A stretch of 64,000 nucleotides of DNA from Mesorhizobium japonicum MAFF 303099 (lineage in GTDB: Bacteria; Pseudomonadota; Alphaproteobacteria; Rhizobiales; Rhizobiaceae), in the NCBI RefSeq assembly GCF_000009625.1, contig NC_002678.2:5860001-5924000 (forward strand). Direction: 5' to 3'. Below, one piece after another: positions 19,748-35,302 of the stretch; position 1 is the first letter of the stretch; the number at the start of each line of letters is the position of its first letter. The position numbers and the translations under genes were made by a program. Below the pieces are notes generated by a model. The model was not told where the DNA came from. It was given only the letters and a program-made list of their open reading frames with translations, and ran no database searches.

Positions 19748-20818
19748 TTAACCCACCGCAGGCTCGATCCGATATCGGTGTGGAACGCCTGTCGCTGCCC
19801 GGTTGCGGATTTTATCGGGCGCTTGACCTGCCAGCACCGCGACTTCATCGTCGCGCACCGGCGTGTAGAGCCGATAATATTGATGGCTATTCATGTTGAG
19901 TTCGGCTGGAACAACGGCGCTCACGTCCACCGCACTCACCTTGTCGCTGATGGTTGCCATGTTGTCGGGGCCTCCGGCGCCAAGCCGGGGGCCGTTGAAT
20001 TCAATTGCAGCGCTCAAGAAGGTCAGCACCCAATCCTCATGGGTGTAGTAGACGGTAACCCCACGCCCGAGGTCGGGCAGCGCCTTCAGTTTGTCCTGCC
20101 GGTCGAACGCATCGGAATCCTCGTCGGCGGCGGCGAGAATGATTTGGTTGAAGATGGTCGGAAGATGCGTCGCCGGTACGGCCGGTTGGGCCTCGCCGGG
20201 TTTTGTATCTTGCGGTTGCGCCAGCAATGCCTGAACGCCAAAACGCAGCGCAAAGTTTCCCATGCTGTGACAGAGCAGGTGAACGGTCGGACGCGGCGCC
20301 GTCGGGGCAAGGCCGGCAAGCTCCGTCGCCAACCTGCGGATCACTCGGGCAAACGCGGGGCCACTCTGTCGTGATGTTGCCCGGTCATGCTGGTAGCCGA
20401 TCAATGTGCCGGCAGAGGGCCAACTGAAGACGATGATCTCGGCATCTATTCCGTAGAAGCTCAGGATCGTCGCCGCACGTTCGACGCTGTCGGAAAAGGT
20501 GTTGAAGAAGCCATGCGCGAACAGGATGATCGTCTTTGCCGCACTGAATGCCGGATGAAGCGCGGCAAACATCTGGTCGCTTCCGCGAATTTGAGCCTTG
20601 CCCTTCTCGACAAGTATCTTCTCGTCATACACAAGCAGGGTGCCGGGCACGATCTTGCCCTGCTTGGGAGCTCCGGTGACCGTCACCTGGACCTCTCCAT
20701 ATCGAAGATCGACGCCTTGGGCCTGGCTGGGATTGGGGCCGAAACCGATGATCCGCCCCTGACTGTTCACGATCGGGTTTCGATTGCTGACGAAATGGAC
20801 CTTGTAGGTGTTGGCCAC
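19748..20818 (-). CDS. alpha/beta hydrolase, DUF900 family
   Basis: A 356-residue protein with an alpha/beta hydrolase core: the oxyanion region IILFAHGFFNTFSDSVERA near residue 97, FSWPSAGTLIGYQHDR, the nucleophile elbow LLCHSMGNFALRFGVQALL with Ser near 183, and a C-terminal His in NMNSHQYYRLY. This pattern (HGF, FSWPS, HSMGN) is that of DUF900, a poorly characterised esterase-like family common in alphaproteobacteria. There is no obvious signal peptide. It stands alone on the minus strand, convergent with the hydroxyacid dehydrogenase. Confidence 0.75.
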   Translation of the reverse strand: MANTYKVHFVSNRNPIVNSQGRIIGFGPNPSQAQGVDLRYGEVQVTVTGAPKQGKIVPGTLLVYDEKILVEKGKAQIRGSDQMFAALHPAFSAAKTIILFAHGFFNTFSDSVERAATILSFYGIDAEIIVFSWPSAGTLIGYQHDRATSRQSGPAFARVIRRLATELAGLAPTAPRPTVHLLCHSMGNFALRFGVQALLAQPQDTKPGEAQPAVPATHLPTIFNQIILAAADEDSDAFDRQDKLKALPDLGRGVTVYYTHEDWVLTFLSAAIEFNGPRLGAGGPDNMATISDKVSAVDVSAVVPAELNMNSHQYYRLYTPVRDDEVAVLAGQAPDKIRNRAATGVPHRYRIEPAVG

Positions 20819-21218
20819 AGGTTCCTCCGGACAGGATCAGGGGTGTCAGATCAGGCAAACGTTCGGCAATTCACTCCAGGGCGGCACAATCTTGTCTGCG
20901 AACCGCATACCCGGGCCCTGGCTCTCTCCGGATACTTTAGCAGTGCTTGCGGTGGCCAAGCGTAGTTCCGTTATTTCACGTCATGAAAGAACGTATTTGT
21001 TATTTCTAATATGTTCATGCCGTATCGGCAAGCAATTTTGCGACATCTCTTCTTTCACGTCTTGATGCTTTGCATGCGCCACACATGGCGCCGAACCTGA
21101 GTTTTTGCGGCGACCGATCACACCGATGGCCCTGGTAGCGGGCCGCGCGCGTTGGTGCTTGACGCCTAGGTTCGCGCCGGAAAATCCGGATACCGATCCT
21201 GGCGGATCGGCCCTCGGC
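20819..21218. other. intergenic region, 400 bases, no gene recognised
   Basis: It contains a relatively AT-rich stretch at about 20960-21060 with two TTTCACGTC motifs (near 20975 and 21052), probably promoter DNA for the minus-strand hydrolase. No reading frame here resembles a family I know, and I see no tRNA-like fold. Confidence 0.4.
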
Positions 21219-22715
21219 TCAGCAGCGCGGACCCGCCACCATCCGCGCCACCCGCGTCATGTCGGTGCTCATCTCGCGGTCGTCGTCGAGCGGGCTGACG
21301 AGCGCGCGCACGGCGGCGAAGGTGCGCTGCGGCCCTTCACCCATGGTGTCGACGACACCGCGCAACTCCACACCCGTCGCCGCGAAGATCAGCTCCATCG
21401 CCACGAGATAGCGCATGCGCTCGACGATCTCAGCGGTTTTGGCCACCACCCTGGGCGCCATCGACGACTGATCCTCGATGCCGTCCGACACCGCGAGCGG
21501 GCTGAGTGACATCGGGTTGGCCAGATGCCGAATTTCGGCCTCCAGCGCGGACAAGGGTTTTTGCAGTTCCGCATAGCCCTGGCGGCTGCCGCCCCTGGCC
21601 GACAGGAAGCGCGGCAGTTCGGCTGTTGTCGGCGACATCAGCTTCATGCAGCGATTGGCGGTGCCGACGGCGCAATGCGCGAGCGCCTGGCCCAGTTGCT
21701 CCCAGGCCAGCGTCATCGCCGTCAGGTCGAAATTGCCGTTGGAAATCACCCGTTCGCCCTCGGCCAGGATCACGGGATTATCGCCGGAATGGGTCAGTTC
21801 GATCTCGGTCGCTAGCCTTGCCTGTTCGAACGCATTGAGCAGGCCACCCCAGACCTGCGGCACGCAGCGATAGCTGAGCGGATCCTGCAAGCGCCGTGCC
21901 GCCTTGTCCTGCCAAAGGCCGCTTCCGGCTAGTTCCGCGCGCAACCGCGCGCCGATCTCGCGCTGGCCGAAGGCCGGCCGCGCGGCAAGCGCCTGTTCGT
22001 CGATCGCGGTGAGGGACGAGCGGAACGCCTCGTAGTTGAGCGCCACGGCGGCCAGCGCCCAGTCGATGAGATGGGCGACGTCTTCAAGGTACAGGCACGC
22101 CGTTCCGGTCGACAGGCTGTTGGCGACGATGATGGCGTGGCCGTCCTTTTCGCGCAGGTCGAGCGGCTCGAGCCGGGCCAAGGCAAGCGCCTCGGCGGAG
22201 GGCATGATCCGGCCCTGGAACTCCGCCTCGCCATCGCCGCGCAGCGACCTCGCCATATGGCCGAGATGAGCAAGATCGGCCGCGCCGATCGAGCCCCAGG
22301 TCGGGATCACCGGATGCACGCCGGCATTGAGCGCGGCGACAAGGCCCATCACCACGCGTTCGGAGGTGCCGGTGCCACCGGCGGCCATACCTGAAATGCG
22401 CGCGGTCATCAGCGCCCGCACCGCCTCTGTCGGGAGCGCCGGTCCGATGCCCATGCTGTGGCTGAGCGGCACGCTGTGCTGGAAGGCGATCAGGTCGGCC
22501 TGCGCGAGCGGCGTGTCGACACAGGCGCCGAGGCCTGTGGTGACGCCGTACATCGGTTTGCCAAGCCCGGTCAGATGTTCGATGAGGGCGCGGCTCGCCC
22601 GGATTCGGCGCATCGCTTCTTCGCCCAGCATCAACCGGGCGTTGCGGCGTGCGATCTCGGCGACGTCAGCCACGCCGAGCGGCTTGGCGTCGAGCAGTAC
22701 TATCCGGGCTGTCAT
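21219..22715 (-). CDS. aromatic amino acid ammonia-lyase (HAL/PAL) homologue lacking the MIO tripeptide
   Basis: The 498-residue protein is full length for the histidine/phenylalanine ammonia-lyase fold: MYGVTTGLG with the family Tyr56, SHSMGIG, PTWGSIGA, DPLSYRCVPQVWGG near 278, SGDNPV and a C-terminal helical bundle. The cofactor site is abnormal. Histidases read GSVGASGDLAPLAH, where Ala-Ser-Gly cyclises to MIO; here residues 141-153 read GSIGAADLAHLGH, so Ser and Gly are missing and the loop is one residue shorter (codons at 22278-22283). GNFHG is also changed to GNFDL. It cannot form MIO in the usual way, so ordinary lyase activity is doubtful. It is the most distal gene of the minus-strand ectoine-catabolism block. 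I do not assign hutH. Confidence 0.8.
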   Translation of the reverse strand: MTARIVLLDAKPLGVADVAEIARRNARLMLGEEAMRRIRASRALIEHLTGLGKPMYGVTTGLGACVDTPLAQADLIAFQHSVPLSHSMGIGPALPTEAVRALMTARISGMAAGGTGTSERVVMGLVAALNAGVHPVIPTWGSIGAADLAHLGHMARSLRGDGEAEFQGRIMPSAEALALARLEPLDLREKDGHAIIVANSLSTGTACLYLEDVAHLIDWALAAVALNYEAFRSSLTAIDEQALAARPAFGQREIGARLRAELAGSGLWQDKAARRLQDPLSYRCVPQVWGGLLNAFEQARLATEIELTHSGDNPVILAEGERVISNGNFDLTAMTLAWEQLGQALAHCAVGTANRCMKLMSPTTAELPRFLSARGGSRQGYAELQKPLSALEAEIRHLANPMSLSPLAVSDGIEDQSSMAPRVVAKTAEIVERMRYLVAMELIFAATGVELRGVVDTMGEGPQRTFAAVRALVSPLDDDREMSTDMTRVARMVAGPRC

Positions 22716-22854
22716 GTCTTGCCTGTATCCTGTGACCAGATGCCCGGACCAGCATTACAACGGGCGTAGCCGTTTGTGACGGCTCGCAGACGCGACTGCA
22801 AGCCATTCCCATTGGGGCAGCGGCGAGAAGGTGGCCAGAGCGAGGATCAGGAAA

Positions 22855-23958
22855 CTATGCCTGCCGCTCCGCGATGGCATCGGGGACGACCACCAGCTTG
22901 CCGACAAAATCCTTGGCGACGAAATCCGCCTGTGCGCGGTGGAAATCGGAGAGCCTGTAGACACCTCCGACCAGCGGCCGGATCTTTTTCGCCTCGATAT
23001 AGCCGACGATACGGCGGAAATCCGCGCGCGTGCCCTGGCTCGAGCCATGCAGCTGCAATTGCTTGAGATACATGGTCCTGAGATCGAGCTGCACCACCGG
23101 CCCGGCGATTGCACCGGCGGTGGTGTAGCGGCCTTCGGGCCTGAGAATACGCAGCAGGTCGTTGAAGATCGCGCCGCCGACGAGATCGGCGACCACGTCG
23201 ATCGGCTGGCCGCCGGTCACTTCAGCCACGGCCCGCGGCAGGTCAGCGACGCCGCGGGTGATGACGGCCTCGGCGCCGATGTCGAGCACCGCCTGTTCCT
23301 TGCCCTTGCCGACGACGGCATAGGGAATGGCGCCGCGCGCCCGCGCCAGCTGGACGATGCCGGAGCCGACGCCGCCCGAAGCGCCGGTGACCAGCACACG
23401 CTCACCGGCCTTCAAGCCGGCGCGTTCCAGCATCTGTTCGCCGGTCAGGTAGGCGCAGCAGAAGGTGGCGAGCTCGACATCGCTCATATCAGTATCGACG
23501 ACATGGGCGTTCTCGGCAGGCACGGTCTGGTATTCGGCATAACCACCGTCGCGGCCATGACCCATATAGTCGATGTCGGCGAGTGAATCGTCATCGCGGT
23601 TGTAGATGGAGAAATCGACCATCACCCGCTCACCGATCCGCTCCGGCGAAACGCCTTCGCCAACGGAAACGATGGTGCCAACCGTGTCGGTGCCCTGGAT
23701 GCGCGGGAAAACAAGCGTGTTGCCCTGACGCCGCCAGGTCGACACGGCGGCCGCGTCCTCTTCCGTGCCATAGGCGCCCTGGCGCACCCAGACGTCGGTG
23801 TTGTTCATCCCGCAGGCGCTGACCTCGACCAGCACTTCACCAGGGTCAGGCGAGGGCACTTTCACGTCGGTGCGGTAGACGAGTTTTTCCGGTCCGCCGT
23901 GCCCGGTGAGCAGCACGGCGGCCATGGTGGCAGGGACGGTTGTGGTCATGGCAGTCAT
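22855..23958 (-). CDS. medium-chain dehydrogenase/reductase, quinone oxidoreductase-like
   Basis: A 367-residue MDR protein with the N-terminal GroES-like domain (MAAVLLTGHGGPEKLVYR, GEVLVEVSACGMNNTDVWVR), PRIQGTDTVGTIVSVGEGV and the Rossmann motif VLVTGASGGVGSGIVQLARA near residue 193. The catalytic-zinc His-Glu pair and the four-Cys structural zinc cluster are absent, which points to a zinc-free NADPH-dependent reductase. It begins eight bases after the aminotransferase gene stop and is probably in the same transcript; an MIO-less HAL homologue follows 139 bases later. It is not part of the known ectoine pathway, so its role there is open. Confidence 0.8.
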   Translation of the reverse strand: MTAMTTTVPATMAAVLLTGHGGPEKLVYRTDVKVPSPDPGEVLVEVSACGMNNTDVWVRQGAYGTEEDAAAVSTWRRQGNTLVFPRIQGTDTVGTIVSVGEGVSPERIGERVMVDFSIYNRDDDSLADIDYMGHGRDGGYAEYQTVPAENAHVVDTDMSDVELATFCCAYLTGEQMLERAGLKAGERVLVTGASGGVGSGIVQLARARGAIPYAVVGKGKEQAVLDIGAEAVITRGVADLPRAVAEVTGGQPIDVVADLVGGAIFNDLLRILRPEGRYTTAGAIAGPVVQLDLRTMYLKQLQLHGSSQGTRADFRRIVGYIEAKKIRPLVGGVYRLSDFHRAQADFVAKDFVGKLVVVPDAIAERQA

Positions 23959-23966
23959 CGTCGATC

Positions 23967-25346
23967 TCAGAGATTGGCAAACACACTCTTCACCGCATCC
24001 GCAGTCTTCGAGACGACGATGTCGGCTTGCTCGCGGGTCAGGCAGAGCGGCGGTGCGAAGCCCAGAATGTCGCCCTGCGGCATGGCGCGGCCGATGACGC
24101 CGCTGGCGGCCAGCGCTGTCGCCACTTGCGGCCCGATCTTCTGCGAAGCGTCGAAGAATACCCGGTCGTCCTTGTCGGCGACGAACTCGACCGCTGCCAG
24201 CATGCCGTCGCCGCGCACCTCGCCGACATTTTTATGGCCACCGACGGCCTTGGCGAGTTCGGCACGGAAATAGGCGCCGGTTTCGCCGGCATTCGTCACC
24301 AGATCCATCTCGTCGATCAGTTCGAGATTGGCGACTCCGGCGGCAACGCAGATCGGATGCGCCGAATAGGTCCAGCCATGGCCGAGCGAGCCGAGTTTGT
24401 CGGAACCCTGCACCAGCACCTGCCACACCCTGTCGGCGACGATGACGCCCGACAGCGGCGCATAGGCCGAGGTCAGGCCCTTGGCGATGGTGATCAGATC
24501 CGGCTTGATGCCGTAATGATCGGAGCCGAACATGGTGCCCAGCCGGCCGAAGCCGGTAACCACTTCGTCGGCGACCAGAAGCACGTCATATTTCTTCAGC
24601 ACCGCCTGGATCTTTTCCCAGTAACCGGCAGGCGGCGGCACGATGCCACCGGTGCCGAGAATCGGCTCGCCAATGAAGGCGGCGATGGTTTCGGGACCTT
24701 CGGCCAAGATCATCTCCTCGAGCTTGTCGGCGCAGTGCTGCGAGAACTGTTCCTCGCTCATCGAGCGGTCGGTGCGGCGGAAATAGTACGGCGCCTCGGT
24801 GTGCAGCACCGGCGCGCGCGGGAGGTCGAAGGCGTTATGGAACAGGTCGAGCCCGGTCAGCGATCCGGTCATCACGCCCGAGCCGTGATAGCCGCGCCAA
24901 CGCGAGATGATCTTCTTCTTCTCCGGCCGGCCCAGCACATTGTTGTAGTACCAGATCAGCTTGATGTTGGTTTCGTTGGCGTCCGAGCCGGAGAGGCCGA
25001 AATAGACCCTCGACATCCCCTTCGGCGCGCGGTCGATGATCATCTTGGCCAACGTGATCGAGGCCTCGGTGCCGTGTCCGACATAGGCATGATAGTAGGC
25101 GAGGTTCTTCGCCTGTGTGGCGATGGCATCAGCGATCTTCTGGCGGCCATAGCCGACATTGACGCAATAGAGGCCAGCGAAGGCGTCGATGCTCTTCCTG
25201 CCATTGTTATCCCAGACGGTGACGCCTTCACCACCGGCCATGATGCGGGTCGGGCTCTCACCGCGTGCGTGCGTGCCCATATGCGTCGAGGGATGGAAGA
25301 AGTGGTCGCGATCCCAGGCGTTGAGTTCGTTGGACTGGTTGAGCAT
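23967..25346 (-). CDS. class III aminotransferase, DoeD-like (diaminobutyrate transaminase candidate)
   Basis: A 459-residue omega-aminotransferase. SGSDANETNIKL near residue 120 and RWRGYHGSG near 150 bind PLP, Asp260 lies in VADEVVTGFGR, and the Schiff-base Lys289 in TIAKGLTSAYAPLSG. By sequence alone it could use beta-alanine, putrescine or another omega-amino donor. The context (next to an asnC/Lrp gene, a semialdehyde dehydrogenase and the ectoine operon) supports the DoeD role: removing the amino group of diaminobutyrate to give aspartate semialdehyde. It is 32 bases downstream of the dehydrogenase gene, on the same strand. Confidence 0.82.
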   Translation of the reverse strand: MLNQSNELNAWDRDHFFHPSTHMGTHARGESPTRIMAGGEGVTVWDNNGRKSIDAFAGLYCVNVGYGRQKIADAIATQAKNLAYYHAYVGHGTEASITLAKMIIDRAPKGMSRVYFGLSGSDANETNIKLIWYYNNVLGRPEKKKIISRWRGYHGSGVMTGSLTGLDLFHNAFDLPRAPVLHTEAPYYFRRTDRSMSEEQFSQHCADKLEEMILAEGPETIAAFIGEPILGTGGIVPPPAGYWEKIQAVLKKYDVLLVADEVVTGFGRLGTMFGSDHYGIKPDLITIAKGLTSAYAPLSGVIVADRVWQVLVQGSDKLGSLGHGWTYSAHPICVAAGVANLELIDEMDLVTNAGETGAYFRAELAKAVGGHKNVGEVRGDGMLAAVEFVADKDDRVFFDASQKIGPQVATALAASGVIGRAMPQGDILGFAPPLCLTREQADIVVSKTADAVKSVFANL

Positions 25347-25378
25347 TTTTGGTCTCCTTGAGATGTGGCCGGGCGGAC

Positions 25379-26872
25379 TTATGCGACGTCCAGGCAGAGA
25401 TACTTGAGATCGGTGAACGCTTCGAGCCCGTGGCGCGAGCCCTCGCGGCCGATGCCGGACTGCTTGACACCGCCGAACGGGATCGGAGCGCCGGTGATCT
25501 TCACCCGGTTGATGGCGACCATGCCGTAGTCGAGCGCGCGGCCCATGCGCTGCTGGCGGGCACCGTTATCCGTCACGACATAGGCAACCAGGCCATATTC
25601 CGTGGCATTGGCGCGCGCGATCACCTCGTCCTCGCTGTCGAAAGGCGTCACCGCGGCGACCGGCCCAAAAGTCTCTTCGCGCATGATCAGCGCCGCGTCG
25701 GAAACGTCGGCCAGCAGCGTCGGCTGGTAGAACAGCGGCCCGGCCTGGTGTCGCTTGCCGCCGGCAAGGCAGCGCGCGCCATGGGCGAGCGCATCGGCGA
25801 CCTGCTCCTCGACTTTCTGGACGGCGCGCTCATGCAGCAGCGGCCCGATGTCGGTCATGTCGTCAAGGCCATTGCCGGTCCGCAGCGCCTCGATCCGCTT
25901 GGCGAAGGCAGCGCAGAAGCGATCGTGGATCGGCCGCTGGACGTAGATGCGGTTGGCGGCGAGGCAATCCTGGCCCGATGTGGCGAATTTGGCGTCGATG
26001 GCGATGCTCACCGCCTTGTCGAGATCCGCATCGGCAAACACGATGAGCGGAGCGTGGCCGCCAAGCTCCATCACCAGCCGCTTCATCGTCGGCGCGCTCT
26101 GCGCGGCAATCAGCCTGCCGATCTCGGTCGAGCCCGTAAAACTCATGGCGCGCACGCGTGTGTCTTCGCACATCCGCCCGACGATCGTCGCGGCCTTGCC
26201 GGTGACGATGTTGAAGACACCGGCCGGCAGTCCGGCGCGCTCGCCAAGCTCGGCCAATGCCAGCGCCGACAGCGGCGTTTCCGAGGACGGATGCGCGACA
26301 ATGGTGCAGCCGGCGGCAAGGGCGGCGGCCGCCTTGCGGGTCAGCATGGCCGAGGGGAAATTCCACGGCGTGACGATGCCGACGACGCCGAGCGGCTCGC
26401 GCCGCACCATCATTTCTGCGTTCGCCAGATGGCTGGTGACGCTCTCGGCGTTGAGGCGCTTGGCTTCCTCCGCATACCACTCGACGAAAGAGGCGGCATA
26501 GTCGATTTCGCCGAGCGATTCCTGCAAGGGCTTGCCCTGTTCCAGGGTCATCAGCAACGCGAGGTCGTCTTTCGCGGTGATGATCAGCTCGAACCATTTT
26601 CGCAGGATTCTTGACCGCTCCTGCGGCAGCAGCGACCGCCAAGCCGGAAAAGCGAGCGCGGCGGCGTCGATTGCTTGTGTCGTTTGCCGTGCATCCAGCG
26701 CCGCGACGAAGGCGACCGTGCTTCCCGTCGCCGGATCCGTGACCTCAAAGCTTTCGGCGGCCTCGCTCGCCGTCCAGTGGCCGTCGACATAGGCGAGTTC
26801 GCGCAGCAGACGGCGGTCGGCGAGGCGGTCGAGCGCCTCATGGCGATGCGAGCGGGCGAAATGCGCGGACAT
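25379..26872 (-). CDS. semialdehyde dehydrogenase, DoeC/GabD-like
   Basis: A 497-residue ALDH. VTPWNFPSAM is at 168-177, the general base Glu269 in MELGGHAP and the nucleophile Cys303 in GQDCLAANR. The closest general class is succinate-semialdehyde dehydrogenase. In ectoine catabolism the orthologous position is held by the enzyme oxidising aspartate semialdehyde to aspartate (DoeC/Ssd), which the neighbours support. One oddity: the cofactor-binding Lys of the LKPxxxTPLSA motif is His194 here (AHPSSETPLSA), which may alter NAD/NADP preference. It is transcribed from the region shared with the lrp gene. Confidence 0.83.
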   Translation of the reverse strand: MSAHFARSHRHEALDRLADRRLLRELAYVDGHWTASEAAESFEVTDPATGSTVAFVAALDARQTTQAIDAAALAFPAWRSLLPQERSRILRKWFELIITAKDDLALLMTLEQGKPLQESLGEIDYAASFVEWYAEEAKRLNAESVTSHLANAEMMVRREPLGVVGIVTPWNFPSAMLTRKAAAALAAGCTIVAHPSSETPLSALALAELGERAGLPAGVFNIVTGKAATIVGRMCEDTRVRAMSFTGSTEIGRLIAAQSAPTMKRLVMELGGHAPLIVFADADLDKAVSIAIDAKFATSGQDCLAANRIYVQRPIHDRFCAAFAKRIEALRTGNGLDDMTDIGPLLHERAVQKVEEQVADALAHGARCLAGGKRHQAGPLFYQPTLLADVSDAALIMREETFGPVAAVTPFDSEDEVIARANATEYGLVAYVVTDNGARQQRMGRALDYGMVAINRVKITGAPIPFGGVKQSGIGREGSRHGLEAFTDLKYLCLDVA

Positions 26873-27002
26873 GGTCGAAGCCTCCCGGTTCGGTCTGATC
26901 CTGGGAGACTATCCGTCGTGGGCGGACAGAGAGGCTGTTTGGGTGTCCTGAAGTAGAGAGATTCTCTCTATTGTGCCGCCTCTGCAGACGATTTCTCCAG
27001 CA

Positions 27003-27494
27003 CTACGGCGACACCGGCAGCAACTCGGCGATGGGAAGTGCGATCTCTTCTTTCACCGTCTTGGTGACGATGTAGGTGAAGTAGCGGTCGATACCGATCT
27101 CGCGGTCGAGCAGGCCGTCGACCAGCCGCTGGTAGGCGTCGATGTCGCGCGCCATCACCTTCAGCACATAGTCGACGCCGCCGCCCACCGACCAGCAGGC
27201 GACGATCTCGGGGATATCGCGGATGACGCGCTCGAAGCGGTCGAAATCGGCCTGGCGGTGGCTGGCCAGCGTCACTTCCATCAGCACGGTGGCCACCGGC
27301 GCCACGACGCGCATGGCGATCCTCGCGTGATAGCCCGAGACGATGCCGGCCTTCTCCAGCTTACGCAGCCGCATCCAGCATGGGGTCGGAGACAGCCCCA
27401 CCTGCTCGGCCAGTGCCAGCTTGGTGATGCGCCCGTCGCGCTGGATGGCGTCGAGGATTTTGAGGTCGATGGCGTCGAGTTTCGCGGCAGTCAT
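27003..27494 (-). CDS. asnC: Lrp/AsnC-family regulator of ectoine catabolism
   Basis: A 163-residue Lrp/AsnC protein. The helix-turn-helix is at about residues 8-55 (LDAIDLKILDAIQRDGRI, LAEQVGLSPTPCWMRLRKLEKAG) and a RAM effector domain follows (VACWSVGGGVDYVLKVMA). It is divergent from the MocR regulator across 83 bases and upstream of the DoeC- and DoeD-like genes. An AsnC-type regulator (asnC/doeX) in this position is a constant companion of ectoine degradation genes, where diaminobutyrate-derived metabolites are the known effectors. The regulatory target here is inferred from position. Confidence 0.85.
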   Translation of the reverse strand: MTAAKLDAIDLKILDAIQRDGRITKLALAEQVGLSPTPCWMRLRKLEKAGIVSGYHARIAMRVVAPVATVLMEVTLASHRQADFDRFERVIRDIPEIVACWSVGGGVDYVLKVMARDIDAYQRLVDGLLDREIGIDRYFTYIVTKTVKEEIALPIAELLPVSP

Positions 27495-27577
27495 CAGGGC
27501 TCACTTTTTCGTCCACAGTACCATGATGGCGCATTATTTCGATTGTCAATTGCACTGATTTCGATCTCTAATAAGTC

Positions 27578-28963
27578 ATGACATTGTGGCAACCCGACCC
27601 CGCGCTCATAAGGCGGCCAGCCTATCAATCGCTTGCCGACCAGTTCGCGCGCGCCATCCATGACGGGCGCCTTGCCAATGGCGCACGCCTGCCGACGCAT
27701 CGCCGGCTGGCCGACGATCTCAATTTGTCGGTGCAGACCGTCAGCCGCGCCTATGAGGAATTGATCCGGCGCGGCCTGATCTCGGGCGAGATCGGCCGCG
27801 GCAGCTTTGTCCAGACGCAGCGTCGCGAGCCGGAGCCGCCCTATCTGCCCGAGCGCCTGGGCGAGGTCATCGATCTCTCCATCCTGAAGCCGGTCTGCGA
27901 GCCCATGCATCTGGAGAGGTTGAAGCAGGCACTGGGCTGGCTTGCCGAAAACCTGCCGTCGAGTTCAGCGTTGTCCTTCCGGCCCAACATGGTGTTTCCG
28001 CGCCACCGTGCCGTGGCGGTCGAATGGCTGAAATTGTGCGGGCTCGACATTTCAGCCCAGAACATCAGCCTGACCAATGGCGCCACCGCCGGCATGACGG
28101 TGGCGCTGATGAGCGTGGCGCCGCCTGGCTCGACCGTTGCCACCGAGGCGATCGGCCACCACACGCTGGTGCCGCTGGCACGCTATCTCGGCTTCAACCT
28201 CCAAGGACTGCCGATCGATGATAACGGCCTGATCCCGGAGGCGCTGGACGAGGCCTGCCGTCTTTCCGACATCCGCGCGGTGTTCGTGCAGCCCTCGGTG
28301 ATCAACCCGACGGCAACGCTCATGGATGCCCAGCGGCGCGAACAAATCGCCGCGGTTGCGCGCAAGCATGACATCGCCATCATCGAGAACGACGTGCTGG
28401 GCCCGCTGGTCGAGGATCGGCCGCCGCCGGTCGCCGCCTTTGCCCCGGAGCGCACGCTCTACGTCACCTCTTTCACCAAGATCACCGTGCCCGGCCTGCG
28501 CATCGGCTATCTTGCCGCGCCCGACCGCTATGTCGCCGCCGTCGCCAACCGGCATCTGGTGTCGAACTGGATGGCGACGCCGCTGGTTGCCGAGATCGCC
28601 ACCAAATGGGTGACTGACGGCACGGCGATGGAGCTCGTCCTCTGGCAGCGCGCCGCATTGCGGCGGCGGCAGGATATCGCCGCCGAAGTGTTGGCCCGCA
28701 TCGACTACCGCGCCCGCCGCGACGGGCTGCATATCTGGCTGCAACTGCCCGACGACCGCGCCGAGGAGGGCTTTGTCGCCCAGGCCCGGCTGCAGGGCGT
28801 GGCAATCGCGCCCGGCACATCCTTCCGCATTTCCGACGCGCCCTGGCATCCGGCGGTGCGCATCTCGCTGGGCTCGACCACCGAAGGGGAACTGCGCGCC
28901 GGCCTCGGCGTTGTCACCAAGCTGCTGCTTGGCGATCCGGAGCATTTGCTGCTCGCGATCTGA
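27578..28963 (+). CDS. enuR: MocR/GntR-type PLP-dependent regulator of ectoine use
   Basis: A 461-residue MocR protein: an N-terminal GntR winged helix (about residues 15-78: LADQFARAIHDGRLANGARLP, LADDLNLSVQTVSRAYEEL) linked to an aminotransferase fold I domain with PLP Lys301 in TSFTKITVPGLRIGY. The known EnuR of Ruegeria binds PLP through Lys302 and senses N-alpha-acetyl-diaminobutyrate and diaminobutyrate. The position directly upstream of ehuABCD-eutABCDE and divergent from asnC matches the ectoine loci of Rhizobiales and Roseobacter. There is no good Shine-Dalgarno before the ATG. Confidence 0.88.
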   Translation: MTLWQPDPALIRRPAYQSLADQFARAIHDGRLANGARLPTHRRLADDLNLSVQTVSRAYEELIRRGLISGEIGRGSFVQTQRREPEPPYLPERLGEVIDLSILKPVCEPMHLERLKQALGWLAENLPSSSALSFRPNMVFPRHRAVAVEWLKLCGLDISAQNISLTNGATAGMTVALMSVAPPGSTVATEAIGHHTLVPLARYLGFNLQGLPIDDNGLIPEALDEACRLSDIRAVFVQPSVINPTATLMDAQRREQIAAVARKHDIAIIENDVLGPLVEDRPPPVAAFAPERTLYVTSFTKITVPGLRIGYLAAPDRYVAAVANRHLVSNWMATPLVAEIATKWVTDGTAMELVLWQRAALRRRQDIAAEVLARIDYRARRDGLHIWLQLPDDRAEEGFVAQARLQGVAIAPGTSFRISDAPWHPAVRISLGSTTEGELRAGLGVVTKLLLGDPEHLLLAI

Positions 28964-29143: not shown

Positions 29144-29928
29144 TTGTCCGCACCCATCATCAAGGTCGATGCCATTTCGAAGAGCTTCGGTGCCTTCAAG
29201 GTGCTGGACGGCTTGTCGATGCAGGTCATGCCGCGCGAAAAGCTGGCGCTGATCGGCCCCTCGGCTCGGGCAAGACGACGATCCTGCGCATCCTGATGAC
29301 GCTCGAGCGCATCGACGGCGGCCACATTCAGATCGAGGGCGAGCAGCTCTACCACATGGAGCGCAACGGCCAGCTGCTGCCCGCGGACGAGCGGCATCTG
29401 GCGCGGATGCGTCAGAAGATCGGCATGGTGTTCCAGCTGTTCAACCTGTTTCCACACAAGAGCGTCATCGACAATGTGACGCTGGCGCCGATGCTGACCA
29501 AGGGTATGCCGCGCGCCGCCGCCGAGAAGCGGGCGATGGAACTGCTCGACATGGTCGGCATGGCCGACAAGGCCAAGGCGATGCCGGCGCAACTGTCGGG
29601 TGGTCAGAAGCAGCGCGTGGCGATCGCCAGGGCGCTCGCTCTGCAGCCCAAGATCATGCTGTTCGACGAGGTGACGTCGGCGCTTGATCCGGAACTGGTC
29701 GAAGAGGTGCTCAACGTTCTGTGGCGGCTTTGCGCCGAGACCGACATGACCATGCTGCTGGTCACCCATGAAATGGGGTTTGCCCACGACTTTGCCGACC
29801 GGGTGCTGTTCTTCGATCGCGGCAAGATCGTCGAGGAGGGCAAACCCGACGAGATTTTCCGCAATCCCAAACAGGAGCGCACGCAAGGCTTCCTGAAGAA
29901 GATCATCGCGGCCGGACATCGCGTCTGA
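29144..29928 (+). pseudogene. ehuA: ectoine importer ATPase with a frameshift in the P-loop
   Basis: This is the polar amino acid/ectoine-type ABC ATPase of the ehu system, but no single frame covers it. From the TTG at 29144 the frame gives IIKVDAISKSFGAFKVLDG...LALIGPS and then fails; from about 29266 the next frame continues SGKTTILRILMTLERIDGG, MVFQLFNLFPHKS, LSGGQKQRVAIARAL, LFDEVTSALDPE and VTHEMGFAHDFADRV. At 29261-29269 the DNA reads TCGGCTCGG where TCGGGCTCGG is needed for GPSGSGKTT, so one G is missing from a short G run. It is either a real inactivating deletion or a sequencing/assembly error. All other motifs are intact, which favours a recent event or an error. Confidence 0.85.
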
Positions 29929-30014
29929 CCGTCATGCCCGAGGCGACAACGCCGTCCTCCAGGGACGGAAAGCCGCCTCGAACAAACCAAGACAAGAAAC
30001 AGGAGTTGGGAACA

Positions 30015-30866
30015 ATGAAGAAACTTGGCATTCTGGCCGGCGTCGCCGGCTTGGCACTGGCGGCGGTTCTGGCCGCCTCGATCCCGGGCTCGGCCGACGA
30101 CAGCAAGCTCGAGCAGCTGAAGGCACAGGGCTTCGCCCGTGTCGCCATCGCCAATGAGCCGCCCTACACGGCGGTGGCGGCCGACGGCAAGGTGTCGGGC
30201 GCGGCACCCGACGTGGCGCGTGAAATCTTCAAGCGGCTCGGCGTTGGCGACATCGTCGCCTCGATCTCCGAATATGGCGCCATGATCCCCGGCTTGAAGG
30301 CCGGCCGCTTCGATGTCGTAACCGCCGGCCTGTTCATGAAGCCGGAGCGTTGCGCCGCGGTCGCCTATTCCGAACCGGTGCTGTGCGACGCCGAGGCGAT
30401 GCTGGTGAAGAAGGGCAATCCGAAAGGCTTCAAGAGCTACGAGGACGTCGCCAAGGACACATCCGCCACGATCGGCGCGCCCGGTGGCGGCACCGAGGAG
30501 AAGCTGGCACTCAACGCAGGCGTGCCGCGCGAACGCGTCATCGTCGTGCCGGATGGCCAGAGCGGCCTGAAAATGGTGCAGGACGGCCGCATCGACGCCT
30601 ATTCGCTGCCGGTTCTGTCGATCAACGATCTGATGAAGAAGGCCAACGACCCGAACCTCGAAGTCATCGCCCCGGTGCAGGGCGCCCCGGTCTATTGCGA
30701 CGGCGCCGCCTTCAAGAAGGGCGACGAGGCGCTGCGCGATGCCTATGACGTCGAGCTCGCCAAGATGAAGAAGTCGGGCGAGTTCGCCAAGATCATCGAG
30801 CCTTACGGTTTCTCGGCCGCCGCCGCGATGTCGACGACGCGCGACAAGCTCTGCTCGGCGAAGTAG
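30015..30866 (+). CDS. ehuB: ectoine/hydroxyectoine substrate-binding protein
   Basis: A 283-residue periplasmic binding protein of the amino acid (SBP family 3) type. The signal peptide MKKLGILAGVAGLALAAVLA continues to a cleavage near residue 28, before DDSKLEQLKAQGF. The mature protein has VAIANEPPYTA, GAAPDVAREIFKRLG and FDVVTAGLFMKPERC, as in EhuB of Sinorhizobium, which binds ectoine and hydroxyectoine in the periplasm for delivery to EhuCD. AGGAG lies nine bases before the ATG. A repeat-rich intergenic element follows, as is common after binding-protein genes that are expressed in excess over their permeases. Confidence 0.88.
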   Translation: MKKLGILAGVAGLALAAVLAASIPGSADDSKLEQLKAQGFARVAIANEPPYTAVAADGKVSGAAPDVAREIFKRLGVGDIVASISEYGAMIPGLKAGRFDVVTAGLFMKPERCAAVAYSEPVLCDAEAMLVKKGNPKGFKSYEDVAKDTSATIGAPGGGTEEKLALNAGVPRERVIVVPDGQSGLKMVQDGRIDAYSLPVLSINDLMKKANDPNLEVIAPVQGAPVYCDGAAFKKGDEALRDAYDVELAKMKKSGEFAKIIEPYGFSAAAAMSTTRDKLCSAK

Positions 30867-30878
30867 GTGCCTCTTCTT

Positions 30879-31058
30879 CCTTCTCCCCGTTTACGGGGAG
30901 AAGGTGTCACGAAGTGACGGATGAGGGGCGGCGCCATACCTTTATAAGTTCGCGATGCCCCTCATCTGCCTGCCGGCTTTCGTAGCTCGAAAAGCCAAGC
31001 AATTGGGTTTTCGCCCGCTACGCGGACCGCTCCTCAACTCCCCGTGAACGGGGAGAAG
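30879..31058. repeat. RIME-like mosaic of palindromes between ehuB and ehuC
   Basis: The 5' end is a perfect hairpin, CCTTCTCCCCG (30879-30889) with CGGGGAGAAGG (30894-30904). It is followed by GTCAC/GTGAC (about 30905-30917), ATGAGGGGC (30921-30929) with GCCCCTCAT (30957-30965), a GGCTTT...AAAAGCC stem, and a closing CTCCCCGT/ACGGGGAG hairpin near 31038-31055. Composite palindromic intergenic elements of this type (RIME) are a hallmark of rhizobia. The placement suggests a role in differential mRNA stability of ehuB versus ehuCD. Confidence 0.65.
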
Positions 31059-31085
31059 GGGCTAAAATGAAATGTTGGAACCTAG

Positions 31086-31745
31086 ATGACCCAGTGGTCC
31101 GGCTATCTCGGCCTGATATTGCAGGGGGCGCTTGTCACCATCGAGCTGACGCTGATGGGGTCGGTGCTTTCCCTGATCATGGCCTTTCTGGCCGGCATGG
31201 GGCGGCTGTCGCGGTTCTTCGCGCTGAGGGCGCTCGCCACCGCCTATATCGAATTCTTCCGCGGCACCTCGATCTTCGTGCAGCTGTTCTTCGCCTATTT
31301 CGTGCTGCCGCTGATTGGCCTCGAACTGACTCCACTGCAGGCCGGCGTGCTGGCCTTGGGCCTGAATGTCGGCGCCTATGCCGCCGAGGTGGTGCGCGGC
31401 GCCGTGCAGTCGATCGGCCGTGAACAGCATGAGGCCTGCATCGCGCTCAATCTCGGCCGCTGGCAAGGCCTGCGCCATGTCATCCTGCCGCAGGCCTTTC
31501 TGGTAATGCTGCCGACCTTCGGCAACAACGCCATCGAACTGCTCAAGGCCACCTCCGTGGTCTCGCTGATCTCGCTCGCCGACCTGACCTTCCAGGCGCA
31601 GGTGGTGCGCGCGCAGACCGGCAACACGATGGTGCCGTTCGCCACCATCCTGGTCATCTATTTCGTCCTGGCGCTGCTCATTTCTTGGGGTGTGCGCTCG
31701 CTGGAGCGCCGCATGGCGCGCGGCCTTGATGGGGTGCGCGTCTGA
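31086..31745 (+). CDS. ehuC: ectoine ABC importer permease
   Basis: A 219-residue HisM/GlnP-type permease with an N-terminal GALVTIELTLMGSVLSLIMA membrane segment, the EFFRGTSIFVQLFFAYFVLP core and the EAA-like loop NLGRWQGLRHVILPQAF. The stop overlaps the next permease by one base (TGATG), so the two are translated together and should form a heterodimer. Function follows the Sinorhizobium EhuC precedent and the intact gene order. Confidence 0.88.
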   Translation: MTQWSGYLGLILQGALVTIELTLMGSVLSLIMAFLAGMGRLSRFFALRALATAYIEFFRGTSIFVQLFFAYFVLPLIGLELTPLQAGVLALGLNVGAYAAEVVRGAVQSIGREQHEACIALNLGRWQGLRHVILPQAFLVMLPTFGNNAIELLKATSVVSLISLADLTFQAQVVRAQTGNTMVPFATILVIYFVLALLISWGVRSLERRMARGLDGVRV

Positions 31746-32404
31746 TGGAGTGGGATTGGGATTTCGTATGGCAGATCATGCCGACGCTGATCCAGGGGGT
31801 GAAGATCACCATCCTGGCGACGCTGCTGGGCTCGGTGCTGGCGGCGATCGTCGGGCTGGGCATCGCGCTGGCGCGCCGCTCGCCCAACAAGGCGCTGTCG
31901 CGCACCGTCGGCTGGTCGGCCGAATTCATCCGAGGCACGCCGCTTCTGGTGCAGCTCTATTTCATCTTCTACGTGCTGCCCGACATCGGCATCCTGCTGC
32001 CGCCACTGGTTGCCGGTGTCATAGGGCTCGGGCTGCATTACGGCACCTACACGGCGGAGGTCTACCGCGCCGGCATCGACAATGTACCGCGTGGCCAATG
32101 GGAAGCCGCCAAGGCCTGCAATCTCAGCGCCAGGCAGACCTGGACGCACATCATCATCCCGCAGGCCATTCCGCCGATGATCCCGGCGCTGGCCAATTAT
32201 TTCATCGCCATGTTCAAGGAGACGCCGTTGCTGTCGGCGATCACCGTGCTGGAACTGATGAACCAGGCCAGAAGCGTCGCCAACACCTACTATCGTTACA
32301 TCGAGCCGATCACACTGGTCGGCGCCTTCTTCCTCGCCATCAGTCTTTGTTCGGTCGTGCTGCTGCGCTGGCTGGAACGCCGTTACGGCAAGATCGAGAG
32401 ATAG
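31745..32404 (+). CDS. ehuD: ectoine ABC importer permease
   Basis: A 219-residue paralogue of the preceding permease, with MPTLIQGVKITILATLLGS, EFIRGTPLLVQLYFIFYVLP and the cytoplasmic loop NLSARQTWTHIIIPQAIPP. It starts within the stop of ehuC and ends three bases before eutA. Two permeases of equal length and one ATPase are normal for this transporter class. Its activity would depend on the frameshifted ehuA. Confidence 0.88.
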   Translation: MEWDWDFVWQIMPTLIQGVKITILATLLGSVLAAIVGLGIALARRSPNKALSRTVGWSAEFIRGTPLLVQLYFIFYVLPDIGILLPPLVAGVIGLGLHYGTYTAEVYRAGIDNVPRGQWEAAKACNLSARQTWTHIIIPQAIPPMIPALANYFIAMFKETPLLSAITVLELMNQARSVANTYYRYIEPITLVGAFFLAISLCSVVLLRWLERRYGKIER

Positions 32405-32407
32405 CCG

Positions 32408-33187
32408 ATGAAACCTTTGCCCGAGATCAAGGTCTATCCAAAACGGCCATCACTCGATGACCGCCCGCTCGACAAGCGCGTCGGCCTGATCATCCTGGCC
32501 ACGGATCACACCAGTGAGCCGGACTTTCGCCGCATGGTGGCGAGCGAGCGCATCGGTGTCCATGTCGCGCGTATCCCCTATGCCAATCCGACGACGCCGG
32601 AAAATCTGCGCAAGATGCAGCCGGCGTTGACGGCGGGGGCTGCGCTGATCCTGCCCGATGAGAAGCTCGACGCCATCTGCTACTCCTGTACGTCGGCCTC
32701 GGTGGTGATCGGTGATGCCGAGATCGAGACGGCGATCCAGGCGGCCAAGCCCGGCGTTCCTGTGGTCACTCCGCCAATGGCTGGTGTGCGCGGGCTGAAT
32801 GCCTTCGGCGTGCGCCGGATCAGCATTCTTACCCCCTACACGGTCGAAACCTCCAGGCCGATGGCGGCCTATTTCGCGGCGCGTGGTTTCGAGATAGCCA
32901 GCTTCACCTGTCTCGGTTTCGAGGACGACCGAGAGATGGCGCGCATCCCGCCGGCAGCCCTTGTCGATCTCGCGCGGCAAGTGACCGACCCGCAGGCCGA
33001 CGCGCTGTTTGTGTCCTGCACGGCGCTGCGCGGCGCGCTTGCGGTCACCGGCATGGAACAGGCAATCGGCCGTCCTGTAGTGACCAGCAACCAAGCGACA
33101 GCCTGGAACTGCTTGCGGCTGTGTGGCGACGAGACGCCGCGCCCCGAATTTGGGCAGCTGATGACGCTTCCTCTGCCGCGCGATTGA
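32408..33187 (+). CDS. eutA: ectoine utilisation protein EutA, Asp/Glu racemase fold
   Basis: A 259-residue protein of the arylmalonate decarboxylase/Asp-Glu racemase superfamily. The two half-site cysteines are Cys94 (AICYSCTSASVVIG) and Cys204 (LFVSCTALRGA), both retained, which suggests racemase or isomerase chemistry rather than decarboxylation. Its neighbours identify it as EutA, whose exact reaction in ectoine/hydroxyectoine catabolism is not settled; a role with EutB and EutC on the hydroxylated derivative has been proposed. It starts three bases after ehuD and its TGA overlaps the eutB start by one base. Confidence 0.87.
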   Translation: MKPLPEIKVYPKRPSLDDRPLDKRVGLIILATDHTSEPDFRRMVASERIGVHVARIPYANPTTPENLRKMQPALTAGAALILPDEKLDAICYSCTSASVVIGDAEIETAIQAAKPGVPVVTPPMAGVRGLNAFGVRRISILTPYTVETSRPMAAYFAARGFEIASFTCLGFEDDREMARIPPAALVDLARQVTDPQADALFVSCTALRGALAVTGMEQAIGRPVVTSNQATAWNCLRLCGDETPRPEFGQLMTLPLPRD

Positions 33188-34179
33188 TGATCATGACGAC
33201 CGTCTCCCTTAACGATATCCGCGCCGCGCGTGAGCGTATTGCCAGCAAGGTCGAGTACACGCCGACTGTTTTATCCTCGAGCCTTTCGGAACGTCTCGGT
33301 GTCCCCGTCCATCTCAAGCTCGAGCATCGCCAGACTACCGGCAGCTTCAAGCTCCGCGGCGCCACGAATGCCGTCTCTTCGCTGAGCGCGGAAGAAAAGG
33401 CAGGCGGTGTGGTCGCGGCCTCGACCGGCAACCATGGCCGGGCGCTGGCACATGCTGCGAAGCTCGAAGGCATGCGCGCGGTGATCTGCATGTCGCGGCT
33501 GGTGCCCCAGAACAAGCTCGACGAAATCCGCCGGCTCGGCGCCGAGGTCCACATCGTCGGCAACAGCCAGGACGATGCCCAGCAGGAGGTTGAGCGGCTG
33601 GTGGCGCAGCAGGGGCTGGTGATGCTGCCGCCTTTCGACAATCCCGCCATCATCGCCGGGCAAGGCACGCTCGGGCTGGAGATGATCGAGCAGGTCCCGG
33701 ATGCCGCTCTGGTGCTTGTGCAACTCTCCGGCGGTGGCCTGGCTTCCGGCGTCGCCACAGCCGTCAAGGGCATCAGGCCCGGGACAGAAGTCATCGGCGT
33801 TTCGATGGCGCGGGGTGCTGCGATGAAGGCGAGCCTCGATGCCGGCCGGCCTGTCCTGGTGGAGGAACTGCCGACGTTGGCGGACTCGCTGGGTGGCGGC
33901 ATCGGCCTCGACAACAGGCTGACCTTCGCCATGTGCCGCGACCTGCTCGACGAAATCATCTTGCTCAGCGAGGACGAGATCGCCGCAGGTATCTGCCATG
34001 CCTATGCGCAGGAGCGCGAGATCGTCGAGGGCGCCGGCGCGGTCGGCATCGCAGCGCTTCTCGCCGGCAAGGTCAAGGCGAAAGGGCCGATGGTCGTACT
34101 TCTCTCCGGCCGCAACATCGACATGAATGCGCACCGCCGGATCATCTGCGGCGAGGCAATCGGGGAGCGCGCCGCATGA
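33187..34179 (+). CDS. eutB: threonine dehydratase-like PLP enzyme
   Basis: A fold-type II PLP enzyme of 330 residues. PLP Lys55 is in TTGSFKLRGATNA, followed by ASTGNHGRALAHAAK, a Gly-rich phosphate loop QLSGGGLASGVATAVKG and EGAGAVGIAALL. Start ATG 33187 lies in the TGATG overlap with eutA. In ectoine loci this gene is eutB, a serine/threonine dehydratase-like enzyme thought to act on hydroxy-diaminobutyrate-type intermediates from hydroxyectoine. It overlaps eutC by four bases (ATGA). Confidence 0.88.
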   Translation: MIMTTVSLNDIRAARERIASKVEYTPTVLSSSLSERLGVPVHLKLEHRQTTGSFKLRGATNAVSSLSAEEKAGGVVAASTGNHGRALAHAAKLEGMRAVICMSRLVPQNKLDEIRRLGAEVHIVGNSQDDAQQEVERLVAQQGLVMLPPFDNPAIIAGQGTLGLEMIEQVPDAALVLVQLSGGGLASGVATAVKGIRPGTEVIGVSMARGAAMKASLDAGRPVLVEELPTLADSLGGGIGLDNRLTFAMCRDLLDEIILLSEDEIAAGICHAYAQEREIVEGAGAVGIAALLAGKVKAKGPMVVLLSGRNIDMNAHRRIICGEAIGERAA

Positions 34180-35168
34180 GCCGTATGACGATTCTGACCG
34201 AAGCAGAACTGCGCAAGATCGTAACGCTCGATCTCGACGCCGTCGCCTGCGTCGAGAACGCTTTTCGCGCGCTCGCCACTCTGCCCGTGGCGATGCCGCC
34301 GATCCTGCGGCTCGACATTCCCGAGCATCGCGGCGAGGTCGACGTGAAGTCCGCTTATGTGCCCGGTATCGATGGCTTCGCCGTGAAGATCAGCTCCGGC
34401 TTCTTCGACAATCCAAAGCTCGGCCTGCCGAGCGGTGGCGGCATGATGGTGCTGCTTTCGGCAAGGACCGGTGTGGTAGAGGCGCTGCTGCTCGACAATG
34501 GCTACCTCACCGATGTCCGCACCGCTGCGGCTGGTGCGGTTGCGGCGAAGCATCTGTCGCGCGAAGACGCCACCGTGGCAGCAATCTTCGGCGCCGGTTT
34601 GCAGGCAGGTCTGCAACTGGAAGCGCTGCGCCTTGTCAGGCCGATCGCCGAAGCCCGCATCTGGGCGCGCGACGCCGCCAAGGCTGAAGCCACCGCTGCC
34701 CGCTTGCGCGAAAGACTGGGCATTACCGTGCACGCCGAGCCCGATGCAGCGGAGGCGGTTGCCGGCGCCGATATCATCGTCACCACCACACCGTCGACCG
34801 AGCCGCTGATCAAGGCAGGCTTCATTTCGGCCGGCCAGCACATCACCGCCATGGGCTCGGACGCCGAACACAAGAACGAGATCGCGCCGGCCATCCTGCG
34901 CATGGCCGATCTCTATGTCGCCGACAGTGCGCGCCAGACGCGGCGTCTGGGCGAACTGCATCATGCCATCGCGGCAGGGGTGATGGCCGCCGATGAAGAC
35001 GTGACCGAACTCGGCCAGATCATCGCCGGCACCAAACATGGCCGGCGCGCGGCCAGCGATATCACCATCGCCGACCTGACCGGCACCGGCGTGCAGGACA
35101 CGGCGATCGCCACGCTCGCCCGCAACCGCGCGCGGGCGGCCAATGCCGGAACCATTTTTGAAAGCTGA
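34176..35168 (+). CDS. eutC: ornithine cyclodeaminase-like protein
   Basis: A 330-residue OCD/mu-crystallin family protein with KISSGFFDNPKLGLPSGGGM, LTDVRTAAAGAVAAKHL, the dinucleotide-binding VAAIFGAGLQAGLQLEAL and TMGSDAEHKNE-like ITAMGSDAEHKNEIAP, where the Asp matches the catalytic Asp of cyclodeaminases. The ATG at 34176 overlaps the eutB stop. In the ectoine pathway it is EutC, proposed to work with EutA and EutB on hydroxyectoine breakdown; it could act as an imine reductase or a lyase rather than on ornithine. Confidence 0.88.
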   Translation: MSRMTILTEAELRKIVTLDLDAVACVENAFRALATLPVAMPPILRLDIPEHRGEVDVKSAYVPGIDGFAVKISSGFFDNPKLGLPSGGGMMVLLSARTGVVEALLLDNGYLTDVRTAAAGAVAAKHLSREDATVAAIFGAGLQAGLQLEALRLVRPIAEARIWARDAAKAEATAARLRERLGITVHAEPDAAEAVAGADIIVTTTPSTEPLIKAGFISAGQHITAMGSDAEHKNEIAPAILRMADLYVADSARQTRRLGELHHAIAAGVMAADEDVTELGQIIAGTKHGRRAASDITIADLTGTGVQDTAIATLARNRARAANAGTIFES

Positions 35169-35181
35169 TGCTGGCCGCAAA

Positions 35182-35226
35182 GCATGATCCGGAAAAGTGG
35201 GAACCGGTTTTCCGATCAGATCATGC
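35182..35226. repeat. palindromic rhizobial repeat between eutC and eutD
   Basis: GCATGATC (35182-35189) and GATCATGC (35219-35226) bound an inverted repeat whose inner part is GGAAAAGTGGGAACCGG followed by TTTTCC. This element is dispersed in many rhizobial genomes. It interrupts the otherwise tightly overlapping eutABC-eutDE operon, so it may adjust the expression of the two enzymes common to ectoine breakdown. Confidence 0.6.
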
Positions 35227-35302
35227 TCAAGCAAAATTCCTGGAGCCGGGTTCACCGAAGTTGAAACGGACTCCAGGGCCCAACAAACGAGGAAGCAAAA
35301 GA

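Follow-up and report, generated by a model that had tools for sequence, protein, structure and literature searches.

What does a full-length homologue of the histidine and phenylalanine ammonia-lyases do when it lacks the residues that make their MIO cofactor? The question is raised by a gene of Mesorhizobium japonicum MAFF 303099 lying in the window analysed here, a stretch of 64,000 nucleotides (NC_002678.2, positions 5,860,001 to 5,924,000). Coordinates given without a prefix are those of the window.

Gene and Loop Sequence

The gene and the sites discussed below are as follows:

21219–22715, minus strand: PF00221 lyase homologue of 498 amino acids, predicted to be MIO-free, AAD clade (profile, fold and tree)
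22257–22295, minus strand: loop GSIGAADLAHLGH (residues 141–153), where the MIO tripeptide would lie (alignment)
22278–22283, minus strand: codons of Ala145-Ala146
21558–21560, minus strand: codon of Lys386 (in Gln-Lys; residue counts below)

The reading frame is open and begins with ATG. The PF00221 profile covers residues 13–470 (E 9.1e-129), and this near-full-length match, together with the fold, places the protein in the aromatic amino acid lyase superfamily. Aligned with Pseudomonas putida HutH, whose loop reads GSVGASGDLAPLAH, the loop of the window protein is one residue shorter (GSIG-AAD); Ala145 is retained, and the Ser and Gly of Ala-Ser-Gly are gone. The X-Ser-Gly of the MIO-dependent ammonia-lyases and aminomutases (HAL, PAL, TAL) is thus missing, which sets the protein outside that group. 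Tyr56 and the RCVPQVWG segment (residues 283–290) are present. An earlier note on this DNA had described a full-length lyase homologue without the MIO tripeptide that keeps Tyr56, RCVPQVWG and its full length, and the profile search and alignment bear out its coordinates, its residues and the loop one residue short.

The protein resembles HutH (TIGR01225) in family, length, the conserved tyrosine, the RC-PQV segment and 34% identity to the P. putida enzyme. It differs in lacking Ala-Ser-Gly, in scoring 379.7 bits against a curated TIGR01225 cut-off of 539.15, and in having Lys386 where HutH has valine. His86, which corresponds to His83 of HutH, is arginine in 81 of 121 AAD relatives (the query and the best 120 of 1,432 matches). 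The AlphaFold monomer model, built on a 17-row alignment, had a pLDDT below 50 at residues 57–70, 77–88, 142–146 and 407–416. A promoter and terminator scan of 20800–27700 found fewer sites than in shuffled sequence.

Conservation of the Gene

Loss of the motif would by itself permit decay, and the window protein could on that account be a decaying HutH copy or the product of a sequencing error. The earlier note had proposed a collection of homologues with the same motif, and these proved abundant: GAAD is present in 121/121 proteins, namely the query and the best 120 of 1,432 matches of the homologue search, which are the nearest ones, and in 38/38 loci from whole-protein searches, representing 35 distinct genomes. 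A further set of 80 loci, located partly via the motif, was left out of these counts. The window gene is under purifying selection, with a dN/dS of 0.054–0.156 (median 0.127) against 40 orthologues more than 85% identical. Tyr56, Lys190, Arg283, Asn313, Glu414 and Lys386 are invariant in the 121 AAD sequences (query and best 120 of 1,432). The AAD proteins form a deep clade of their own (below), and the same genome carries a separate, normal HutH with Ala-Ser-Gly. Selection, the motif in all 38 loci, the deep clade and the separate HutH refute decay or error, to which we give a negligible probability.

Within the genus, the AAD gene was found at 85% identity or above in 59 of 146 genomes (56 full length and 3 partial). 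The genus hits also include five of a form with 56–60% identity, one of which sits in a genome among the 59.

Relationship to Ergothionase and HutH

The best solved sequence match of the window protein is ergothionase from Treponema denticola (6s7j, E 7e-72). The same structure ranks first by fold (TM 0.88), with P. putida HutH almost equal (TM 0.87–0.88), and identity is 29% to the ergothionase as against 34% to HutH. As HutH has a near-equal TM and the higher identity, the pairwise scores were indecisive, and the kinship was decided by tree. Ergothionase, absent from the earlier note, is an already solved MIO-free relative with an identical shortening of the loop; that it lacks MIO is stated in a 2026 paper (PMC13405746).

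A tree of 84 proteins, which includes one very divergent CAD row, contained a branch with 100/100 support that separated AAD, AGD and ergothionase from the sampled ASG and GY rows. The same branch was recovered at 100/99 in a tree of 75 proteins from which the loop and Gln-Lys columns had been dropped. AAD and AGD were sister clades in both trees (100/96) and together sister to ergothionase, and AAD was a clade separate from ergothionase (100/99, tree without the loop columns); the rows of these trees are hand-picked representatives, and the midpoint rooting serves the drawing only. The simplest reading of these sequences would be one single loss of MIO for AAD, AGD and ergothionase.

The residues agree with this branch. 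Relative to two HutH references, the loop lacks one residue in 121/121 AAD, 120/120 AGD and 120/120 ergothionase-set proteins, and ASG was found in none of these three sets. Lysine stands at position 386 in 121/121 AAD and 120/120 AGD proteins and in 115/120 of the ergothionase set, the other five having asparagine; the residue is valine in the two HutH references, valine, isoleucine or cysteine in the ASG rows of the outgroup sample, and tyrosine in its GY rows. Lysine is not a perfect mark of the branch, an ergothionase-like protein of Sinorhizobium meliloti (L171) having alanine there. The window protein thus has the short loop, Lys386 and the common branch of the ergothionase group, within which the lysine is not universal. 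The loop motif was also considered as a diagnostic of the AAD clade and was rejected, since GAAD also occurs in a Polaromonas protein (L170) that falls within the ergothionase-like group.

With the T. denticola enzyme (6s7j, 6s7q) the window protein shares the PF00221 fold, the shortened loop, the tree branch and equivalents of Tyr56, Lys190, Lys386, Arg283 and Glu414. Apart from identity and clade, the two differ in a set of near-invariant residues considered below, and Asp411, invariant in AAD, is glycine in the ergothionase set, glutamate in AGD and alanine in the HutH references. The AGD paralogue of the same genome (C1:1445246-1446691, L027:8235-9743) is like the window protein in its sister clade, its loop without the MIO residues (GSIG-AGD) and its Gln-Lys, but is only 41% identical to it, and an ornithine-cyclodeaminase-family gene precedes the paralogue (the pair at C1:1444236-1446691, L027:7237-9743). 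Near this pair, the opposite strand carries aconitase-X, Rieske and desaturase-family genes.

Other PF00221 forms predicted to be MIO-free were seen in passing. A second kind in the same genome (C1:106328-107749, minus strand; L026:8281-9783) has a loop short by three (GS-GY-L) and tyrosine at the position of Lys386. In the tree, nine sampled rows of this GY type cluster together (86/87) on the MIO side, and the gene lies at most 10 kb from a HutH-like ASG homologue in four checked genomes (G287, G195, G318, G403). A very divergent form from a genome of the same family (L153; loop GSIGC-AD) groups with ergothionase; its branch is long and was flagged as doubtful by the tree program.

The Ectoine Neighbourhood

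The genes between the lyase and the ectoine cluster, and the cluster itself, are listed below:

22855–23958, minus strand: medium-chain (zinc-type) dehydrogenase/reductase (profile), upstream of the lyase with a gap of 139 bp
23967–25346, minus strand: class-III aminotransferase (profile), presumably DoeD-like by position
25379–26872, minus strand: aldehyde dehydrogenase, succinate-semialdehyde-dehydrogenase-like, below the family cut-off (profile), which we take to be DoeC-like by position
27003–27494, minus strand: Lrp/AsnC regulator (profile), assumed from its position to be DoeX-like
27578–28963, plus strand: MocR-type GntR/aminotransferase regulator, divergent (profile), by position presumably EnuR-like
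29296–37488, plus strand: ectoine uptake and breakdown genes (curated models; other transporter genes by position only)

EhuB, EutA, EutB, EutC, DoeA and DoeB all score above the cut-offs of their curated models. The earlier note had set the lyase among ectoine-catabolism genes. That holds in the window, where the lyase ends a run of genes on one strand (AsnC regulator, aldehyde dehydrogenase, aminotransferase, dehydrogenase/reductase, lyase; 27494 down to 21219) divergent from the ectoine cluster, but it does not carry over to relatives. The flanking aminotransferase and aldehyde dehydrogenase stand beside the lyase in 14/40 close orthologue loci and in none of 39 more distant ones; in other close loci, the lyase lies among unrelated transporters. 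The ectoine neighbourhood is genuine but local, and an association with eut/doe genes is not conserved. A dedicated enzyme of ectoine or hydroxyectoine catabolism would fit the position of the lyase at the end of its run, but the counts in both sets of loci and the 139-bp gap before the gene speak against it. An ectoine role was accordingly rejected as the general function on the locus counts, and as an account of the window protein we consider it highly improbable.

Neighbours in Distant Loci and a Recurrent Partner

Neighbourhoods were compared in 80 AAD loci, comprising 41 close loci (at least 85% identity) and 39 distant ones (below 85%, mostly rhizobia). Because these loci were found partly through the motif, the counts describe neighbourhoods and not natural frequencies, and each neighbour cluster was typed by one representative.

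An ornithine-cyclodeaminase-family gene lies downstream on the same strand in 29/39 distant loci, one gene away in 18 and two away in 11. Also present in the 39 loci were genes for an OpuAC binding protein (11), MaoC (14), a CoA-transferase (11), an SDR (11), a HutC-like GntR regulator (15) and UbiD (3, two of them with UbiX); sugar-type or amino-acid-type transporters occur as well. Eleven of the 29 loci share one gene order: CoA-transferase, SDR, MaoC, HutC-like GntR, lyase, OpuAC and cyclodeaminase-family gene, then permeases and the ATPase of an ABC transporter. A PhnD-like binding protein was recognised in 8/11, and upstream genes in 7/11 encode a LysR protein and a PF03601 exporter-like protein. 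The representative regulator scored 279 bits (HutC cut-off 220) and the ATPase 312 (ProV cut-off 327). Solved relatives of the OpuAC neighbour include ProX, EgtUC, OpuBC-type binders of quaternary amines and engineered sensors. The AAD locus of Paracoccus aminophilus has CoA-transferase, SDR and MaoC upstream of the lyase and, downstream, six flavin oxidoreductase genes with LLM-class or NtaA/DmoA annotations. OpuAC, cyclodeaminase-family, CoA-transferase and MaoC clusters were found in none of the 41 close loci, within flanks of at most 10 kb, some of them short.

The cyclodeaminase-family gene recurs beside lyases of all three groups. The Polaromonas copy, near an ergothionase-like lyase, is 73–75% identical to the Rhizobium and Inquilinus copies beside AAD and 73% identical to the copy beside AGD in the window's own genome; that of Rhizobium leguminosarum shares 70% identity with the own-genome copy. 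By comparison, the AGD lyase and the Polaromonas lyase share only 41% and 32% identity with the window protein. This difference, with partners 70–75% identical, points to a functional pair of lyase and cyclodeaminase-family protein. At AGD loci, the matched ranges of the two genes were 5–17 bases apart in 16/16 cases compared by hand, and the order of the two genes differs between lineages. Within the genus, the partner gene is present in 118/146 genomes (E 1e-100). By hand count, it occurs in 58/59 genomes with AAD (3 of them partial) versus 60/87 without, a comparison confounded by kinship and given no weight here.

Proposed Function

Of the readings considered, we favour, as probable, that the window gene encodes a MIO-independent lyase for C–N (amine) elimination, on the ergothionase branch but in a clade other than ergothionase and acting on another substrate. 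The earlier note had suggested changed chemistry, naming a MIO-independent lyase, an isomerase or a binding protein; the lyase fits the purifying selection and the kinship to ergothionase, while the other two gained no positive support.

The most probable alternative is ergothionase itself, which would release trimethylamine from ergothioneine or ergothioneine sulfonate. The branch and the shortened loop are held in common, and rhizobial relatives have beside them a HutC-like regulator and an OpuAC binding protein, among the solved relatives of which is EgtUC, a binder of ergothioneine. The PF03601 exporter-like gene of 7/39 distant loci is, moreover, 29–32% identical to a YeiH-family gene adjoining the Polaromonas ergothionase-like gene. 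Set against this are the 29% identity to the T. denticola enzyme, the separate AAD clade and a genome with a single urocanase, one gene from HutH. In addition, the ergothionase-set residues R57, W61, N62, K63 and E142, each present in 118–120 of the 120 proteins, are replaced in the window protein by T60, A64, C65, V66 and A145. The four proteobacterial ergothionase-like proteins examined all keep N62 and K63, with R57, W61 and E142 varying. Because these near-invariant residues differ, the substrate probably differs from that of ergothionase. They lowered our estimate of a straight ergothionase identity to unlikely, and judged by its residues the window protein is probably not an ergothionase. 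An aminomutase working without MIO would share the fold of the MIO aminomutases, and the CoA-transferase and MaoC neighbours could process a beta-amino acid, but the solved aminomutases score below both ergothionase and HutH and a narrow literature search found no MIO-free aminomutase; we think this very unlikely. Little more probable is a HutH descendant that has lost catalysis and serves in binding or regulation. The missing cofactor tripeptide would suit it, but the six residues invariant across the 121 sequences, from Tyr56 to Glu414, are kept as those of an active site would be.

Ergothionase-like genes elsewhere were also noted. On pSymA of S. meliloti (L171, 7938-12921), one annotated hutH lies inside ABC transporter genes and near a gene annotated as dimethylsulfoniopropionate lyase. 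On a Paracoccus saliphilus plasmid (L173, 1-9605), another directly follows hutI, hutH, hutG and hutU, with a sulfate-exporter-family gene farther upstream.

For the favoured MIO-independent lyase, we propose that Tyr56 and Lys386 would serve as general base and acid, set in a conserved framework of Arg283 and Glu414. Such an enzyme may do without the electrophilic cofactor if its leaving amine comes activated, most likely in the form of a quaternary, betaine-type amine; alternatively, the substrate itself may stabilise the carbanion. Elimination would then yield an alpha,beta-unsaturated acid of the acrylate type. Ergothionase reportedly works on an activated leaving amine, trimethylamine from ergothioneine. 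CoA-transferase, MaoC and SDR, as well as UbiD, could plausibly process an unsaturated acid. The OpuAC-type neighbour, the HutC-like regulator and these enzymes would be consistent with a substrate of the betaine type and a product of the acrylate type, and the substrate is perhaps a quaternary amine, on an argument which presumes that neighbours share a pathway and which draws on neighbours missing from the close loci. For a substrate that stabilises the negative charge there is a parallel in PAL, for which a MIO-independent side pathway with electron-poor substrates (cinnamates) is described (PMC7247363), so the fold can react without MIO; in another paper, a MIO-less PAL mutant is used as a blank (PMC3903478).

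Discussion

A conserved lyase homologue of the ergothionase kind, MIO-free as judged from its sequence, is real. Our literature search, which covered titles and abstract openings and few subscription papers, found no MIO-free or betaine lyase besides ergothionase. More tentatively, AAD and AGD may be new families of MIO-free lyases whose substrates, betaines or amino acids different from ergothioneine, may contain sulfur in some lineages, and which would work in a module of two enzymes with a dedicated partner of the ornithine-cyclodeaminase family. As MIO-free relatives are already known, the surprise is smaller; the interest stays because there are two well-populated rhizobial clades and a recurrent partner gene, whose function was not found in the literature searched.

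AAD-clade genes without Ala-Ser-Gly (L174, L175) are annotated in public records as hutH, histidine ammonia-lyase. As these genes lack the residues that make the cofactor, the annotation is probably wrong. If AAD and AGD proteins are active without MIO, cofactor-free elimination extends beyond ergothionase, and the question of which substrates free the lyase fold from MIO would become directly testable. The AAD and AGD genes of soil and nodule bacteria may mark new routes for nitrogenous plant or microbial metabolites.
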